Shown here: one piece after another, positions 2,060-39,822 of the stretch
Numbering within the stretch: the first letter of the stretch is position 1
Layout of the letters: every line of letters starts with the position of its first letter
IMG/VR virus record: IMGVR_UViG_3300045116_000081
Location: 1 to 39,822 of that record
Direction: 5' to 3' (one strand)
DNA from: a virus
Length of the DNA: 39,822 nucleotides
The notes under the pieces: generated by a model
The model's input: the letters and a program-made list of their open reading frames with translations, nothing else
What the model was told of the DNA's origin: nothing
Database searches by the model: none
Position numbers and translations under genes: made by a program

Positions 2060-2227
2060 ATGAACGGGAAAGTATCACGAAAATTGCGAGAGATGTCAAA
2101 AGGCGACAAGAAACTACACAAAATATTAAAAAAAGCATGGATCATGACTCCATGGAATGAGAAAAAGATTAAGGAGAACATTCAAAATGTCCAAAAAAAT
2201 CTTATTCGGGCAGGAAGCCAAATCTAA
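2060..2227 (+). CDS. Small basic hypothetical protein overlapping groEL start
   Basis: A 55-residue lysine- and arginine-rich protein (MNGKVSRKLREMSKGDKKL..., with a central TPWNEKKIKEN) is preceded by AGGGGG. Its last 41 bases overlap the first 41 of groEL in another frame, suggesting translational coupling. No domain is recognised. The GroEL ribosome binding site AAGGAG lies inside this gene. Confidence 0.55.
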   Translation: MNGKVSRKLREMSKGDKKLHKILKKAWIMTPWNEKKIKENIQNVQKNLIRAGSQI

Positions 2228-3821
2228 GTTAATGGATGGTATTAAGAAAGTATCAGATGCAGTTGGTAGCACTCTGGGACCTAAAGCGAACAACGTCGCC
2301 ATTGATCGGGCGTGGGGTTCGCCTTTAGTATTACATGATGGTGTAAGTGTTGCCAAAGAGATTGATTTAGAAGACCAGTTTGAGAATATGGGAGCTCAAC
2401 TCATCAAAGAAGCGGCTCAAAAAACCAACGATATGGCAGGAGACGGGACTACAACGGCTACATTATTGACAGCAGGTATAGTGGCTATGGCACTTAAAAA
2501 CATCGCAGCTGGTGCCAATGCCATGCTCTTAAGAAAAGGGATAGAGATTGCAGTGGATGATTTAGTAGACATGTTGGATTCATTTGCACAGCCAGTCGAT
2601 ACTCAAGATAAAATAAAAAGCGTTGCTGTTATCAGTGCCCAGGATGAAAAGATTGGCACTCTTATTTCTAACGCAATCGAAAAATTAGGCAAAGAGAGCA
2701 TCATTGTCGTGGAAGAAAGTGGAGAGACAGATATCACCATCGACTATAAAGAGGGCATGAACTTCGACAAGGGGTTTATTAGCCCTTATTTTATTACTAA
2801 TCCCGAGCTTGGAGAGTCGGCATTGGAAGAGCCTATGATAGTGGTTACAGATACTAAGATCACGACTGTACCTCAATTTGCGTCTTTTATGCAAAATATC
2901 ACAGCATTAAATAATGGGGCGGTGCCAAAATCAATATTCCTTATTGTGGGAGAGCTATCAGGTAACCCATTAGCCAGTTTTGTAGTGAATAAGGTCAAGG
3001 GTGTGTTTAATGTTTGTGCAGTTCAGGCACCAAATTTTGGAGACAAACAAAAAGAGATATTAGAGGATATAGTAGCGGTCACTGGTGGGACATTCATTAG
3101 CGAAGCAAAGGGATTGAGTATAGATAAAATGACCCTTGAAGACTTCGGTAAAGCTAAAAGAATCATTGTGACTAAAGACGGCACTACAATTGTTGACGGT
3201 GGAGGAGACAAAAAAAGGATAGATTCAAGGATCAAAGAGTTAAAAAACCAATTAAGAAGTTGCGAAAACGAGTTTGAAAGAGAGAAACTGGAAGAGCGTT
3301 TGGCTAAATTAACCAGTGGTATTGCAGTCATCAATGTCGGAGCAAATTCAGAGATGGAAATGAAAGAAAAAAAAGAACGATGCATCGACGCAATAAATGC
3401 CACCAAAGCAGCCATTTCAGATGGAGTAGTACCTGGTGGTGAGACGGCTCTATTAAGAGCGGCTTATAACCTCAATGAAAAAAATATCGATCTGATTAGT
3501 GATGTGGCTTTGGGATACAAAATGGTTTTATCTGCCTGTGGATATCCTTTCGAGGTGTTGATGGATAACTCAGGATTCAATGATGGTCAGATGAGAGAAA
3601 AACTTATCACGGCTTGGGAATACGATGATAAATCGAACATCGGTGTAGATGTGATGGATGGTATGCTCAAAAATATGGTTGAGGCAGGTATCATTGACCC
3701 AGTAAAAGTAACCAAATCAGCACTTAGAAATGCCGCCAGCACAGCAATTATGGTATTTACAACCAATACTTTAATAAGCGAGGTCAAAGAAAAGAAAGAA
3801 AGCGATGGATTTGTCGGATAG
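2187..3821 (+). CDS. groL: Phage-encoded chaperonin GroEL (Cpn60)
   Basis: The 544-residue product aligns in pattern over the whole of bacterial GroEL (548 in E. coli). The equatorial domain has GPK at 31-33, the DGVSVAKE loop with D51, and GDGTTT at 85-90, the ATP-binding signature including the D87 equivalent. The apical domain has PYFITNPE and a NFGD segment. The D398-equivalent aspartate lies near residue 400, GVVPGGE at 413-419, and the ATP-contacting Asp of GIIDPVKVTKSAL near 504. All key ATPase residues are present, so it should be active. The usual Gly-Gly-Met tail is missing (it ends in SDGFVG). The start at 2187 has AAGGAG upstream; an in-frame ATG at 2157 lacks one. It presumably forms a ring with the GroES-like partner encoded upstream and folds capsid or other virion proteins. 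Confidence 0.97.
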   Translation: MSKKILFGQEAKSKLMDGIKKVSDAVGSTLGPKANNVAIDRAWGSPLVLHDGVSVAKEIDLEDQFENMGAQLIKEAAQKTNDMAGDGTTTATLLTAGIVAMALKNIAAGANAMLLRKGIEIAVDDLVDMLDSFAQPVDTQDKIKSVAVISAQDEKIGTLISNAIEKLGKESIIVVEESGETDITIDYKEGMNFDKGFISPYFITNPELGESALEEPMIVVTDTKITTVPQFASFMQNITALNNGAVPKSIFLIVGELSGNPLASFVVNKVKGVFNVCAVQAPNFGDKQKEILEDIVAVTGGTFISEAKGLSIDKMTLEDFGKAKRIIVTKDGTTIVDGGGDKKRIDSRIKELKNQLRSCENEFEREKLEERLAKLTSGIAVINVGANSEMEMKEKKERCIDAINATKAAISDGVVPGGETALLRAAYNLNEKNIDLISDVALGYKMVLSACGYPFEVLMDNSGFNDGQMREKLITAWEYDDKSNIGVDVMDGMLKNMVEAGIIDPVKVTKSALRNAASTAIMVFTTNTLISEVKEKKESDGFVG

Positions 3822-4613: not shown

Positions 4614-5864
4614 ATGGATAGGTTAAAATGGACTACTGTTAAACGTAAAATAAAAGACTTGATTCCTTATGAATTCAACCCCAGACAGATGACCAACGAG
4701 CAGGTGGAAAGCTTAAAGGAATCACTAAACAAATTTGATTTGGTAGAGATACCAGCCATTGATGTAGATAATAAGATTATCGCAGGTCACCAAAGACTAA
4801 AGATTATGATGATGCTAAATCGTGAGGATGAAGAAATAGATGTCAGGATTCCAAACAGGAAGCTAACAGACGATGAGTTTCGGGAGTATAATATCAGGTC
4901 AAACAAAAATACCGCTGATTGGGATCTGGATATGCTTTCAGCAAATTTTGAGTTTGAGGAACTGACATCATGGGGCTTTCAACCATCAGAGGTGGAAAAG
5001 CTGTTTGATATTGTATCAGAGGATGAATTCAACACTGAGGAAGAAATTTCGAAGATAACCAACCCCATTTCAAAAACAGGAGATATCTACAAGTTGGGAA
5101 ACCACAGGCTCATGTGCGGTGATTCAACTAAATCTGATGATATACATAAATTACTAGATGGAGTAACAGCAAAGATGATATTTACTTCACCGCCATATAA
5201 TATGGCTGGTGGTCTATACAAGAATTATCAAGATAACCTACAGAGTGAAGAATTTATAGAATTTAATATTAAGGTTATAGGAGAATACATTAAATACCTA
5301 AAAGGATACATATTTTGGAACTTAAGCTACAATAAAAATGCCAGGTCCGAATTTATTGACATATTTTATTTACTAGTTAGACAGTTAGGAACCAAATTCT
5401 TGGAGTTAATAGTTTGGGATAAGGGTCATGGTATGCCAGTGACAAGTAAAGATATGCTAACAAGAAGTTATGAAGATATTTTAGTAGTAACAAACGATGA
5501 TAACATTTCGCAAGAATTAGATTTGTTTTATTGCGGGACTACTGAGAGTCGTGCTTACTTTAATAAAAAAACACAAAAAGCGCTCACGAACTATTGGAGA
5601 ATAACCACTGATAAGACTCAATTAAAAGACATAAAAGCATGTTATCCTCTAAAACTACCTGAAAAAGCGATGAGGATTATGACTGAAGTGGGAGATATAA
5701 TTATTGATCCGTTTGGAGGATCTGGATCAACATTGATAGCGGCTGAACAGTTGGGAAGAGTTTGCTACACCATGGAATTAGACGAATCATATTGTGACAT
5801 TATAGTTAAGAGATGGGAACGATTCACTGGCGAAAAAGCGGAGGTGATGAATGAAGGAAATTAG
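4614..5864 (+). CDS. ParB-domain DNA methyltransferase (N4/N6, beta class)
   Basis: This 416-residue fusion starts with a ParB/Srx-like domain (about 8-100) carrying GHQRL at 58-62. An S-adenosylmethionine-dependent methyltransferase follows. Catalytic motif IV TSPPY at 191-195 precedes the cofactor motif DPFGGSGST at 365-373, the order of the beta class. TSPPY/SPPY indicates transfer to an exocyclic amino group (N6-adenine or N4-cytosine). Such ParB-MTase fusions are often found just before terminase genes in phages, as here, and probably protect phage DNA from host restriction or mark it. Target sequence cannot be read from the gene. The 5' part may help bind DNA. Confidence 0.9.
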
Positions 5865-6290: not shown

Positions 6291-7733
6291 GTGGAAGAGT
6301 GGCGACCTCATCCTGGACCTCAAGAAGAAGCCTTAACACGAAATGAGTTCGAAATACTTTATGGTGGAGCCAGGGGAGGTGGTAAAACTGATGCAGGTTT
6401 AGTTTGGCTTACAGAACTTGTTGGAAATCCTCGTTATCGGGCTTTAGTTATTCGTAGAAATGCTGACGACTTATCTGACTGGATCGACAGGGCAAGACGC
6501 ATGTACTCAGTAATAGGGGCTCAAATTGCTTACAGACCTCCCATTATCAAGTTTCCATCGGGTGCTACAATTAAAACAGGTCACTTAAAAGATGAGAACG
6601 CTTACGGGAAATACCAAGGTCACGAGTATCACCGTATTTTGATTGAGGAGCTGACTCAAATACCAAGCGAAAAAATGTATCTTCAGCTTATCGCTTCATG
6701 TCGTTCAACAATCAAGGAATTAGTGCCTCAAATATTTTTAACCACTAACCCTGGAGGCGTTGGTCACGGATGGGTAAAAAGAAGATTTGTGGATGTAGCA
6801 GAGCCAGGGAATGTTTTTATCGACCCAGATACAGGGAGAAGCAGAATATTTATTCCAGCTAAAATTGACGACAATCCACATTTGATTTCAAACGACCCTG
6901 GCTACATAAAAATGCTTGATGGGTTAAAAAAGACAGACGAGCAATTGTGGAAGGCATGGAGATTGGGCAGTTGGGAAGTATTCATTGGTCAGGTATTTAC
7001 AGAATTTAGATATGATATTCATGTCACAGATAGATTTGGCATTGATCTAAATAATTGCATTAAGATTATCAGCTTTGACTGGGGATATCGTGATCCAGGG
7101 TGTGCAACATGGATTGCATTGTCACCCGAGAATAAGTATGGTGTCCATCACGCTTTTGTTTACAGGGAACTTTATCAAAATCAAAAGACACCAGAAAAGT
7201 GGGCGGAAGAAATATCAATATTCACCAAACTGGAAGATACAAAGTTTATGGTTTTGCCACATGACTGTTTTAGTGAAGCAAAGGGATCTAGAACGATTGC
7301 CAGCACTTTCGCACAAAAATTAAAAACGAGAATCATTATGGGGAACACCTTAGCCAAGAATGCAAGAATTAATAGGGCGGCTATAACTCACCAGTTTTTA
7401 AGTGAATCGTCCGATGGTTTTCCTTATGTGCAGGTTCATCCTAAATGTTTGAATCTTATCAGGACATTGCCAGAACTGGTATATGACGATACAAATGTGG
7501 AGGATGTGGACACCGATGGGGAAGATCACGCCTATGACGCATTAAGTTTGGGACTTATGACCTTGACGGAAAAATTCAAACTTGATTCTGGTCCTGTTAA
7601 AGCCAGGTCTGCACGCATTGTAACCAGACCAATTATTACGACAAAGCAAGGCGACTATATGGGACAAGACTTTTGGGAAAAAATAAAGGAGGATTTGGTC
7701 AGTAAAAAAGGCGGCAATGTAGAGTTCAAATGA
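6291..7733 (+). CDS. terL: Terminase large subunit
   Basis: The 480-residue DNA-packaging motor starts with GTG one base after the previous stop. The ATPase has Walker A GGARGGGKT at 25-33, Walker B ILIEEL at 116-121 with its catalytic glutamates, and the coupling motif TTNPGG near 150. The RNase H-like nuclease begins with ISFDWGYRDPG and ends with a DHAYDAL motif, giving acidic metal ligands. Length is normal for the family. It cuts concatemeric DNA and pumps it into the prohead through the portal encoded downstream. Confidence 0.95.
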   Translation: MEEWRPHPGPQEEALTRNEFEILYGGARGGGKTDAGLVWLTELVGNPRYRALVIRRNADDLSDWIDRARRMYSVIGAQIAYRPPIIKFPSGATIKTGHLKDENAYGKYQGHEYHRILIEELTQIPSEKMYLQLIASCRSTIKELVPQIFLTTNPGGVGHGWVKRRFVDVAEPGNVFIDPDTGRSRIFIPAKIDDNPHLISNDPGYIKMLDGLKKTDEQLWKAWRLGSWEVFIGQVFTEFRYDIHVTDRFGIDLNNCIKIISFDWGYRDPGCATWIALSPENKYGVHHAFVYRELYQNQKTPEKWAEEISIFTKLEDTKFMVLPHDCFSEAKGSRTIASTFAQKLKTRIIMGNTLAKNARINRAAITHQFLSESSDGFPYVQVHPKCLNLIRTLPELVYDDTNVEDVDTDGEDHAYDALSLGLMTLTEKFKLDSGPVKARSARIVTRPIITTKQGDYMGQDFWEKIKEDLVSKKGGNVEFK

Positions 7734-33032: not shown

Positions 33033-33133
33033 TGTCAGACTAACACTCTGACAAGAGCGGAGCAGGGTAATTTCCTGCTCCCCTTTCCCTCGCCACTGTG
33101 GTTCGTCTCCACCATGGTGGCAAAGGAAAAGGG
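33033..33133 (+). other. Three consecutive hairpins before holin gene
   Basis: Hairpin 1: TGTCAGA 33033-33039 with TCTGACA 33047-33053. Hairpin 2: GGAGCAGG 33059-33066 with CCTGCTCC 33074-33081. Hairpin 3: CCCTTTCC 33081-33088 with GGAAAAGGG 33125-33133 (one bulged A), enclosing GCCAC/GTGGC. None has a long T run. This is probably a structured leader or processing site rather than a coding region. Confidence 0.55.
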
Positions 33134-33152
33134 AGACTAGAAAGGAGACGCA

Positions 33153-33431
33153 ATGACGGAAAGTATGCTTTTATTACTAGGTAGTATTGGAGCGGCTATT
33201 GCTGTTTTAGTGCAAATACTTAAAAGAACACCTGTACCGACTGATAGACCAAAGTTAGTTGTCACAATAATCGCCATTATCGTGGTGATTTGGTCTAATG
33301 CTTCAACTGGAAATTTCAACATGGCTGGCGTAGACAAAATGATTGGTGAGATCGGTGTTTTAGTTGGTGCAGCTATCGCTTTTTATGAAGTTGTGATCAA
33401 ATACATTGCTAATCTATGGAATAGAGCTTGA
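33153..33431 (+). CDS. Holin-like membrane protein
   Basis: The 92-residue protein has three hydrophobic segments: about 5-23 (MLLLLGSIGAAIAVLVQIL), 36-48 (LVVTIIAIIVVIW) and 66-84 (GVLVGAAIAFYEVVIKYI). This size and layout fit phage holins that open the membrane to release the endolysin. The gene has an AAAGGAGA site and follows the lysis cluster. Confidence 0.7.
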   Translation: MTESMLLLLGSIGAAIAVLVQILKRTPVPTDRPKLVVTIIAIIVVIWSNASTGNFNMAGVDKMIGEIGVLVGAAIAFYEVVIKYIANLWNRA

Positions 33432-33455
33432 CAAGCAAAAGCGTGGTGATATAAT
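33428..33455 (+). promoter_or_regulatory. Strong promoter with -35 and extended -10
   Basis: TTGACA at 33428-33433, a 16-base spacer, and TATAAT at 33450-33455 within an exact GTGATATAAT. It overlaps the holin stop codon and reads into the control region. It is the only promoter here combining both classes. Confidence 0.85.
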
Positions 33456-33461
33456 AAAGAT

Positions 33462-33560
33462 ATCAACTTCACTTGGTCCCAAAAGTTCTAAAGCTTTTGA
33501 GGTCATGAGCAAACAGAAGTGTTAGGTTTTCCCCTCCTTGCCTGGCACTTCTTTTGTTTT
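33462..33560 (+). ncRNA. Short RNA or attenuator downstream of promoter
   Basis: From the promoter at 33428, transcription would pass an inner CAAAAG/CTTTTG hairpin (33480-33499), then AGAAGTG 33515-33521 pairing with CACTTCT 33546-33552, followed by TTTGTTTTTG. That gives a transcript of about 100 bases. AAGTG could also pair with an earlier CACTT at 33470-33474, allowing an alternative fold. No open frame is seen. Confidence 0.45.
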
Positions 33561-33597
33561 TGTTGAAAAATGCGACACAAAGGCACACAGGGGTTTC

Positions 33598-33617
33598 TGT
33601 GGATATTCTGTGGATAA
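33598..33617 (+). promoter_or_regulatory. Two DnaA boxes
   Basis: TGTGGATAT at 33598-33606 and TGTGGATAA at 33609-33617; the second is the perfect consensus (complement TTATCCACA). They are spaced 11 bases apart, one helical turn. Further perfect copies lie at 34359-34367 and 36301-36309. They mark a possible replication origin controlled by host DnaA. Confidence 0.6.
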
Positions 33618-33700
33618 GTGAGCATTTTGTTGGTTAAAGCTTGACATATTATCGTATTGGTAGCACGATAGAAATACATTTGTACCGATTTCCTTCGGCT

Positions 33701-33829
33701 TGGTGCAGAAAAGCGGCATCCCCTCCGTCTTGTCTGCACCAGCTGGTGGGACTAAGAGAAGTTGAAATCCCCGGCTCCCCACTGGATGCCACCGGGGGAA
33801 GATAAGGAACGCCCAGGCGAGACCCTGGG
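33701..33829 (+). ncRNA. GC-rich structured element with complementary hairpin loops
   Basis: Hairpin 1 pairs TGGTGCAGA 33701-33709 with TCTGCACCA 33733-33741. Hairpin 2 pairs CCCCGG 33769-33774 with CCGGGG 33792-33797. The loop of hairpin 1 contains GGCATCC (33715-33721), which is the exact complement of GGATGCC (33784-33790) in the loop of hairpin 2, so a 7-pair kissing interaction is possible. Hairpin 3 pairs CCCAGG 33812-33817 with CCTGGG 33824-33829. The block is far GC-richer than its surroundings and has no credible gene on either strand. It could be an RNA regulating replication. No known class is recognised. Confidence 0.6.
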
Positions 33830-33883
33830 AGAGGTGTTTGCAAGGCAACCTAGGTTGAATTTACCTTAACAATTGGTGGACTG

Positions 33884-33960
33884 GTTAACACAAGTTAACT
33901 TACAAGTCTCTGGTTAACAAAGGAGCTATTCTTTGGTGTATCAAAAAACGCTGGTTAAAA
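33884..33960 (+). repeat. GTTAAC iteron-like repeats
   Basis: GTTAAC occurs at 33884, 33894 and 33913, with a partial CTGGTTAA at 33951 and another full copy at 34339. Three are embedded in CTGGTTAAC. Starts are 10, 19 and about 40 bases apart, close to multiples of a helical turn. Together with the DnaA boxes they suggest origin iterons or a repressor array. Confidence 0.55.
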
Positions 33961-34034
33961 AAACACATACTATATAGCCTAAGTATTAAGGATCCAGAGG
34001 TTTTGCAATCTAAGGGGACTAGAATGGGGATAAG

Positions 34035-34313
34035 ATGGATAACATTAAAGGACTAATTCAAAACAGACTAATCAAGAAATCTAAAACTAAAACCAACAAG
34101 TATTGGTTAATTGCCGAGGAAATTGCTAAAATCACCAGATCTACGACTGCAAGGTGGTTAAGAAGCGTTAAAACTCAAGAATACGCTGTCAATCGGGCTT
34201 TGGTGGAATTAAAGGAGGTTATTACCTCAGGGAAGATTAAAAATCCAATCGGTTATTTCGTTTTTTTGCTTAAAAAGTACTCAAAAATCCAGTGTGAACT
34301 TGACAAACGATAG
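34035..34313 (+). CDS. Small basic protein, possible replication-related
   Basis: The 92-residue basic protein (MDNIKGLIQNRLIKKSKTKTN...) directly follows the origin-like region, with GGGG before the ATG. It has a helical layout with TTARWLRSVKTQEYAVNRALVELKEVI and ends NPIGYFVFLLKKYSK. The NPxGYFxxLLKK ending recalls the last helix of some replication initiator proteins, so a shortened initiator or accessory factor is conceivable. Evidence is weak. Confidence 0.45.
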   Translation: MDNIKGLIQNRLIKKSKTKTNKYWLIAEEIAKITRSTTARWLRSVKTQEYAVNRALVELKEVITSGKIKNPIGYFVFLLKKYSKIQCELDKR

Positions 34314-34328
34314 CAGTTATTTTATAAT
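34300..34328 (+). promoter_or_regulatory. Early-type sigma-70 promoter 1
   Basis: TTGACA 34300-34305, a 17-base spacer beginning AACGATAGC, and TATAAT 34323-34328. It overlaps the end of the previous gene. The spacer start is shared with promoters at 35520 and 36250. Confidence 0.9.
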
Positions 34329-34334
34329 GGATAT

Positions 34335-34499
34335 ACTGGTTAACTGATTCTGGTTGCTTGTGGATAACTGCAACTGGTATCTAACTGACCAAATGTCTGA
34401 CCAAAGTTTACCACCTGGGATATTACCAGGATTCAATCGGTAATCTTGGAGATGCACCCAGCCAGAGGGCAATCTGGCGATTAAATTTAAGGAGGGTTT
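34335..34499 (+). other. Structured leader of gene at 34500
   Basis: This 165-base leader includes a GTTAAC site, a perfect DnaA box (34359-34367) lying in the loop of a GTTGC/GCAAC stem, overlapping CCTGG/CCAGG and ATTACC/GGTAAT pairings that exclude each other, and a GCCAGA/TCTGGC hairpin (34461-34478). No gene seen. It may regulate the early transcript. Confidence 0.45.
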
Positions 34500-34667
34500 A
34501 TGCAAAAATTCAGATTTGAGACAATCATTTGGATGATCGTCATTATGGCGCTTGTCTTGGTTGTCTTTTATTTTAGCCAGAAAACTCCAAACATTAAGGA
34601 ATACAACCGACATGTTTGTGAGACATATGGTTACCAGTCTGATTGCAAGACACCGCTTGCTAAATAA
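34500..34667 (+). CDS. Small membrane protein (55 aa)
   Basis: The ATG follows AAGGAGGG. The product has a single membrane helix (about 8-25, TIIWMIVIMALVLVVFYF) and a short tail with two Cys residues (HVCETYGYQSDC). It is the first gene of the early transcript from 34323. Phage early membrane peptides may exclude superinfection or alter host physiology; no evidence decides here. Confidence 0.6.
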   Translation: MQKFRFETIIWMIVIMALVLVVFYFSQKTPNIKEYNRHVCETYGYQSDCKTPLAK

Positions 34668-38487: not shown

Positions 38488-38562
38488 GCCGGGGTAGTTT
38501 AACGGTAGAATATCTGTTTTGTAAACAGAAGGTAGAGGTTCGATTCCTCTCCACCGGCTCCA
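38488..38562 (+). tRNA. tRNA-Thr (anticodon TGT)
   Basis: A cloverleaf can be drawn: D arm with GG in the loop, anticodon stem TCTGT/ACAGA around loop TTTGTAA, T arm AGAGG/CCTCT with TTCGATT, and an encoded CCA end. The acceptor stem GCCGGGG pairs with CC-A-CCGGC only if one A is bulged. The base before CCA is T, unusual for Thr tRNAs. ACA codons are common in this AT-rich genome, so it may support late translation. The odd acceptor may lower function. Confidence 0.85.
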
Positions 38563-39561: not shown

Positions 39562-39822
39562 ATGACCAAAAAGTACAAACTCACTTCGGAAACCAAGGAA
39601 AAGTATGGCGTGAAGCTCTATCGCATTGAAGCGTTAATGGATTTTGGGGATGTAAGAAATGGAGAAAAGGGTGGTTGGGTAGAGAAAGAGGGCAACCTAT
39701 CGCAAGAAGATAATGCGTGGGTCTCTGGCGATGCGGAGGTCTCTGGCGATGCGCGGGTCTCTGGCGATGCGCGGGTCTCTGGCGATGCGCGGGTCTCTGG
39801 CGATGCGTGGGTCTCTGATAAT
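39562..39822 (+). CDS. Hexapeptide-repeat protein, N-terminal part (continues at 17-289)
   Basis: The ATG follows AAGGAG. The N-terminal 50 residues (KYKLTSETKEKYGVKLYRIEAL..., then GGWVEKEGNLSQEDNAWV) match a head domain common to phage hexapeptide-repeat proteins. The WVSGDA/RVSGDA repeats then run to the window end in frame. Joined by the 16-base overlap the protein continues at base 17. Likely a left-handed beta-helix; biological role unknown. Confidence 0.75.
   Translation, partial: MTKKYKLTSETKEKYGVKLYRIEALMDFGDVRNGEKGGWVEKEGNLSQEDNAWVSGDAEVSGDARVSGDARVSGDARVSGDAWVSDN
39714..39822 (+). repeat. Tandem 18-bp repeats, right end
   Basis: Six units of the 18-bp repeat seen at 1-115. The last 16 bases equal the first 16 of the window. 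Confidence 0.9.

Follow-up and report, generated by a model that had tools for sequence, protein, structure and literature searches.

What does the GC-rich block at positions 33701–33829 of this phage genome encode, and does its function lie in a pair of kissing loops or elsewhere? The window, which is the whole stretch of DNA analyzed here, is a complete IMG/VR virus record of 39,822 bases and belongs to a tailed phage with genes for terminase, portal, major capsid and tail-fibre proteins. A preliminary description of the block proposed a structured regulatory RNA with functional loops, similar to plasmid copy-control RNAs and acting in replication. On balance, we lean slightly toward reading the larger region 33428–33830 as a phage small-RNA locus, whose C-rich-loop regulatory RNA would pair with Shine–Dalgarno sequences.

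The portal protein shares 37% identity with its counterpart in phage MW202566 and 25% with that of TM7 phage MG269973, the host of which is a Saccharibacterium. Because of these resemblances, a host among the Patescibacteria is probable. In addition, a related major capsid protein (44%) was found in one genome (G405) of the Berkelbacteria-type class, and Berkelbacteria-type Patescibacteria are the probable hosts.

The letters and the composition on which the preliminary description was built were confirmed. The heptamers GGCATCC (33715–33721) and GGATGCC (33784–33790), as read from the sequence, are exact complements; the three hairpins are present, with stems at 33701–33709/33733–33741, 33769–33774/33792–33797 and 33812–33817/33824–33829; and the G+C content of the block is 0.61 versus 0.40 for the window, which places the block in the top 0.2% of 129-base stretches. 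The first hairpin, hereafter hairpin B (33701–33741, plus strand), has the stem TGGTGCAGA/TCTGCACCA and carries CCCCTCC at 33720–33726 in its loop region, where the C-run is overlapped by GGCATCC, the first proposed kissing loop. Hairpin 2 (33769–33797, plus strand) is closed by CCCCGG/CCGGGG around a 17-nt loop containing GGATGCC, while hairpin 3 (33812–33829, plus strand), CCCAGG-CGAGAC-CCTGGG, has no T-run on the plus strand.

The kissing interaction itself received mixed support. Two strong hairpins with loops so complementary occurred in 0 of 300 dinucleotide shuffles under a strict stem cut-off, and comparable loop complementarity occurred in 6 of 200 shuffles under a looser one. In the minimum-energy fold, an inner 3-bp stem takes up the GG of GGCATCC, and GGATGCC is engaged with nearby GGCTCC. 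This local pairing of parts of both heptamers makes the kiss marginal in energy: freeing them costs ~8.8 kcal/mol, against −11.5 kcal/mol for the 7-bp duplex before the loop–loop penalty. The modeled GGCATCC/GGATGCC kiss is plausible from its complementarity and is best described as a possible, unproven contact. Taken by itself, the block shows no significant folding advantage over its shuffles (z −1.25 and z −1.69). No homologue of the block, close or distant, was found by blastn against phages and the host class or by pattern search; blastn in these sets returned nothing, or short matches in apparent coding stretches. The pattern GGCATCCCCTCCG...GGATGCC had three GC-rich matches in IMG/VR, which were taken as chance; the one inspected looks coding, and the other two have the same span. 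A 13-mer, CACGATAGAAATA, common to window positions 33664–33676 and the 5′ end of one host RNA was also dropped as a sign of homology, because an extended match was found in an unrelated stretch of another genome.

Repeats and DnaA-box-like sites lie near the block. DnaA-box-like TGTGGATAA occurs at 33609 and 34359, and CTGGTTAACA repeats occur at 33881, 33910 and 33951; these three iteron-like repeats, of the CTGGTTAA(C/A)A type, span 33881–33962 on the plus strand. Downstream, a 92-aa ORF (34035–34313, plus strand) occupies the position of a Phage_rep_O gene in phage G001; however, a domain search recognized no replication domain in it. Used as baits, RecT and this ORF retrieved no relatives. 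The Phage_rep_O gene of G001 (E 1.2e-24) follows both the RNA described below and a leader; this segment (L102:6055–6205) comprises a promoter and two hairpins with complementary loops (GGAAG/CTTCC plus a second short match) directly before the gene, and iteron-like repeats lie inside the gene. This arrangement in G001 lends some indirect support to the suggested replication role, and a function in the replication leader is possible.

Accordingly, 33640–33870 might be a structured leader of a replication operon that acts as a kissing or alternative-pairing switch, independently of any small RNA. We consider this rather unlikely. The G001 slot speaks for it (0 of 300 shuffles reach the CGGAAG complementarity of that leader), as does the window's own loop pair in the strict shuffle test. 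However, ~205 bases, repeats among them, separate the end of the block from the next ORF; that ORF has no recognizable replication domain; the kiss is marginal in energy; and the G001 and window leaders share no sequence homology.

The more specific comparison, with plasmid-type antisense copy-control RNAs, was not supported, and we regard such an RNA as highly improbable here. Those RNAs resemble the block in having complementary loops near replication elements, here represented by the repeats and DnaA-box-like sites. Yet in the window the complementarity lies within one strand, no antisense partner was found, and a scan of 33100–34500 gave no minus-strand consensus promoter, which is itself weak evidence. 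Nor was there a match to a known Rfam family, and the conserved RNA is encoded on host chromosomes with no replication gene seen next to it in the neighbourhoods examined.

The preliminary description had missed a promoter and a complete small-RNA gene (33428–33565) beginning ~240 bases upstream of the block and composed of promoter, leader, long hairpin and U-rich sequence, as well as a 23-base complementarity between 33459–33481 and 33747–33769. The promoter, TTGACA-16-TATAAT (33428–33455, plus strand), matches 12 of 12 consensus bases and has TG before the −10 element. The gene, copy A of a CCCCUCC-loop RNA (plus strand), would specify ~105 nt between a predicted start at 33461 and a predicted U-rich end at 33565, and its transcription from this promoter is expected from sequence. 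Computation places hairpin A (33507–33560, plus strand) at the end of the RNA starting at ~33461 (folding z −4.8 versus shuffles). Its apical loop is UUUCCCCUCCUU, with CCCCTCC at 33531–33537, so that the long hairpin displays the loop UUUUCCCCUCCUUG and is followed by U-rich sequence; the T-run after it may stop transcription before the block. Hairpin A scores 61.3 bits with model R1 and 43.3 bits with model R2, having been a training sequence of both, and phage G001 and seven host genomes contain its 20-mer AGGTTTTCCCCTCCTTGCCT unchanged. Rfam models gave no match in the window at gathering thresholds and only chance-level matches at permissive ones (E ≤ 5 around the region). The region does contain a structured RNA, as had been proposed, but the well-supported one is the hairpin at 33507–33560 with its relatives, not the kissing pair.

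These relatives are found in Patescibacteria chromosomes. When only the 18 loop letters were searched for in GTDB contigs, 20 matches were returned, seven of them in Patescibacteria-type contigs. Six of the seven are so named in their titles (four Berkelbacteria, one Nealsonbacteria and one Patescibacteria group), and the contig titled only “bacterium” was placed in the same class as the other copies. In all seven, a long hairpin of differing sequence closes precisely on the loop, a TTGACA-17-TATAAT-type promoter lies upstream, and a T-run follows, whereas no long stem surrounds the loop in any of the remaining 13 matches. The loop UUUUCCCCUCCUUG is identical over all letters in nine copies with differing stems, an identity that is partly due to selection because seven of the nine came from a search for those letters.

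The stems also covary. Among eight sequences, 15 of 29 pairs have two-sided changes, and the covariance model built from these eight brought in additional, diverged members from the same class. In an alignment of 18 sequences, 80% of cells are paired, compared with 54% in shuffles and 35–44% in slid versions, with compensatory changes in 11 of 11 modeled pairs. CCCCUCC is invariant across the 18 members and is all that the diverged members retain of the loop. Model R2, applied to 380 Patescibacteria, gave 12 matches at E ≤ 0.001, all in one class (12 of 36 sampled class members versus 0 of 344 other Patescibacteria), and at E ≤ 0.05 matched 30 of 55 genomes within the Berkelbacteria-type class; these later counts lean towards the family, because all but the first seven members were retrieved with models that include both loop and stem. 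We also took a sigma-70-type promoter 39–88 nt upstream of the motif as a family trait. Promoters with 10–12 of 12 consensus bases precede it in 15 of 16 copies (the window and 14 of 15 relatives tested), the exception being phage G001 (9 of 12; −10 element only, without a good −35).

Several host copies are flanked by DUF2130-like and thioredoxin genes, which are ordinary chromosomal neighbourhoods, and in at least three of them gene orientation excludes read-through from the upstream gene. A scan of one complete host genome showed that 10 of 45 CCCCUCC sites are enclosed by ≥9 pairs; only one strong promoter-bearing copy emerged, and another site lies in a lexA-like gene. No match to the Rfam 6C family was obtained in eight relative loci at E ≤ 0.5, and the literature searched contained no described small-RNA regulator for Patescibacteria. 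Together, copy A and its relatives apparently form an undescribed small-RNA family of one Patescibacteria class. Some host genomes have more than one such hairpin. G315 has three CCCCUCC hairpins with long stems at two loci (L212, minus strand, near 7179, 7044 and 5615), two in succession and the third elsewhere, and two of these share the same inner hairpin sequence. G023 carries a second such hairpin, which has an unrelated stem and a promoter of its own (L155:1501–1567).

The 3′ end of 16S rRNA in a complete host genome reads GGATCACCTCCTTTCT, which identifies CCUCC(UU) as anti-Shine–Dalgarno sequence. Based on this correspondence, we propose a mechanism for the small-RNA locus. The small RNA would be a phage copy, or a mimic, of the RNA encoded on Berkelbacteria-type Patescibacteria chromosomes. 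The unpaired loop UUUUCCCCUCCUUG of its terminator-type hairpin would present the anti-Shine–Dalgarno letters CCUCCUU, and the C-rich loops would pair with G-rich Shine–Dalgarno sites (GGAGGGG/AAGGAGG) of phage or host mRNAs, thereby blocking or otherwise retuning translation initiation. Hairpin B would supply a second binding loop, and a GGCAUCC/GGAUGCC contact, if formed, would cover part of its C-run and could serve as a cap or switch instead of a copy-number control. Stretches complementary to the loop do occur at start codons; examples are AAGGAGGGGAAATG in G001 and, in a host genome, a site that precedes an HU-like ORF. However, such sites are expected for any CCUCC loop and designate no specific target. 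The identity of the loop between phage and host points to a target or partner common to both.

That partner could also be a protein or the ribosome itself, with the conserved loop of the same RNA serving as a 16S 3′-end decoy or as a ligand of an RNA-binding protein. The resemblance of the loop to the 16S 3′ end CACCUCCUUU would fit such a role, as would the sameness of UUUUCCCCUCCUUG in nine copies beyond the anti-Shine–Dalgarno core while the stems differ, although this sameness arises partly by selection. We nevertheless judge it to be on the unlikely side: the loop is an inexact copy of the 16S tail (CCCCUCC versus CACCUCC), and the diverged members retain only CCCCUCC, which fits pairing with GGAGGGG. 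A conserved promoter-bearing RNA with an invariant anti-Shine–Dalgarno loop, present in about half of the sampled genomes of one class and in related-type phages, would offer a handle on post-transcriptional control in the barely culturable Patescibacteria, a marker linking phages to Patescibacteria hosts, and a case of a phage-borne host regulatory RNA.

Several observations connect this small RNA to the GC-rich block. On the plus strand of the window, CCCCTCC occurs only at 33531 and 33720, both within hairpin loops. With filters off, model R2, which was not trained on hairpin B, placed it second among the matches in the window, although weakly, at 13.9 bits and E 0.17. From these sequence features, hairpin B is probably a second CCCCUCC hairpin of the same kind. 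On the other side, its inner CGG/CCG stem ties up two of the motif's C residues together with the next G, and the promoter scan found no good second promoter for the block; a possible weak one, TTGACA-17-CACGAT (33641–33669, plus strand, 9 of 12 consensus bases), precedes hairpin B and falls below the scan cut-off. Furthermore, the 5′ arm of the small RNA (33459–33481, plus strand) is 87% complementary over 23 nt to a 3′ arm at 33747–33769 (plus strand). The duplex of the two arms, at −29.5 kcal/mol with the next partner at −25.7, is the best in the window apart from the RNA's own antisense. When a looser duplex test took in the entire 5′ region, only 4 of 1000 shuffles did better. Among the host small RNAs, no downstream complement of the 5′ part as strong as the window's was found. 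If transcription runs through, the predicted probability of the helix (P1) is near 1. In these models, 33747–33769 could either close P1 or pair in trans with the small RNA. The block is probably the second half, or downstream part, of the small-RNA locus, and the two may form one transcript or two that pair in trans.

Taken further, P1 might close a single large RNA of ~370 nt (33461–33830), an ornate RNA in which the kiss would be a tertiary contact. Ornate RNAs include ROOL, GOLLD and OLE; ROOL and GOLLD occur in phages and bacteria and have possible loop–loop contacts. The whole length does fold well (z −4.1, with 0 of 100 shuffles as good), and the P1 pairs have a probability near 1 in the full-length context. 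We nonetheless consider a single large RNA quite doubtful, as the folding of the isolated linker at 33560–33700 does not exceed chance (z +0.46), hairpin A resembles a terminator, and the relatives are short RNAs. Although a structured RNA in a phage recalls ROOL and GOLLD, the secure predicted transcript of the window is only ~105 nt, and the Rfam models of ROOL, GOLLD and OLE gave no match in the window at gathering thresholds or around the region. A more elaborate form of the Shine–Dalgarno-pairing model, in which a mimic of the host-class anti-Shine–Dalgarno-loop RNA adopts a two-loop form switched by P1 and the kiss and reprograms translation in its ultra-small host, appears similarly far from probable.

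Comparison with known small RNAs places the proposed loop pairing in context. IsrR of Staphylococcus and other small RNAs with C-rich motifs reportedly aim C-rich loops at Shine–Dalgarno sequences, as proposed here. IsrR differs in having several C-rich regions in a longer RNA and in belonging to a different phylum, and no homology is indicated. The 6C/B11 RNAs of mycobacteria and other Actinobacteria repress through the ribosome-binding site by C-rich loops, either of which suffices for repression (PMC10470900). They are similar to the window RNA in displaying C-rich loops on hairpins, of which the window has two, and in the proposed ribosome-binding-site pairing. However, the window loop is not a run of C but CCCCUCC flanked by UUU/UU, hairpin A is also of the terminator type, the window RNA is found in Patescibacteria and their phages, and the Rfam 6C covariance model matched neither the window at gathering nor the region at E ≤ 5. 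In RepG of Helicobacter pylori, a C/U-rich loop of the terminator hairpin binds a G-rich leader site (PMC8295292), a placement of the binding site that is also proposed for hairpin A. RepG targets variable G-repeats in one leader, whereas the window loop matches Shine–Dalgarno-type GGAGGGG, and the two RNAs are not known to be related in sequence.

Among related phages, blastn gave one strong match, a 21-mer in the hairpin A loop common to phage G001. The G001 copy is found at the corresponding site, downstream of a small membrane-protein gene whose position is matched in the window by the gene at 33153–33431, and its loop is immediately enclosed by an inner stem of only 6 bp. Phage G003 has a related hairpin with the loop UUUGCCCCUCCUU directly before the small gene that precedes groEL; another intergenic CCCCTCC hairpin lies ~1 kb before it (L106:3841–3945). 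A relaxed loop pattern had 24 matches in IMG/VR and revealed one further clear hairpin, a strong one with the loop TTTCCCCCTCCTT upstream of an ORF (L252:50–122). The phage carrying it is apparently unrelated, as the window's major capsid protein has no match in that record. A match in phage L028 was rejected since it falls inside an apparent ORF.

Elsewhere in the window, the phage encodes a GroEL (2157–3821; phrog_5725, E 7e-139), a ParB-like domain joined to an N6/N4 DNA methylase (4614–5864) and a tRNA-Thr (TGT; 38488–38562). The same 18-base tandem repeat is present at both window ends (3–121 and 39713–39817), and its plus-strand translation consists of DARVSG hexapeptide repeats. Because the two ends carry the same repeat, the record is probably circular, with the cut falling within a gene of hexapeptide repeats.
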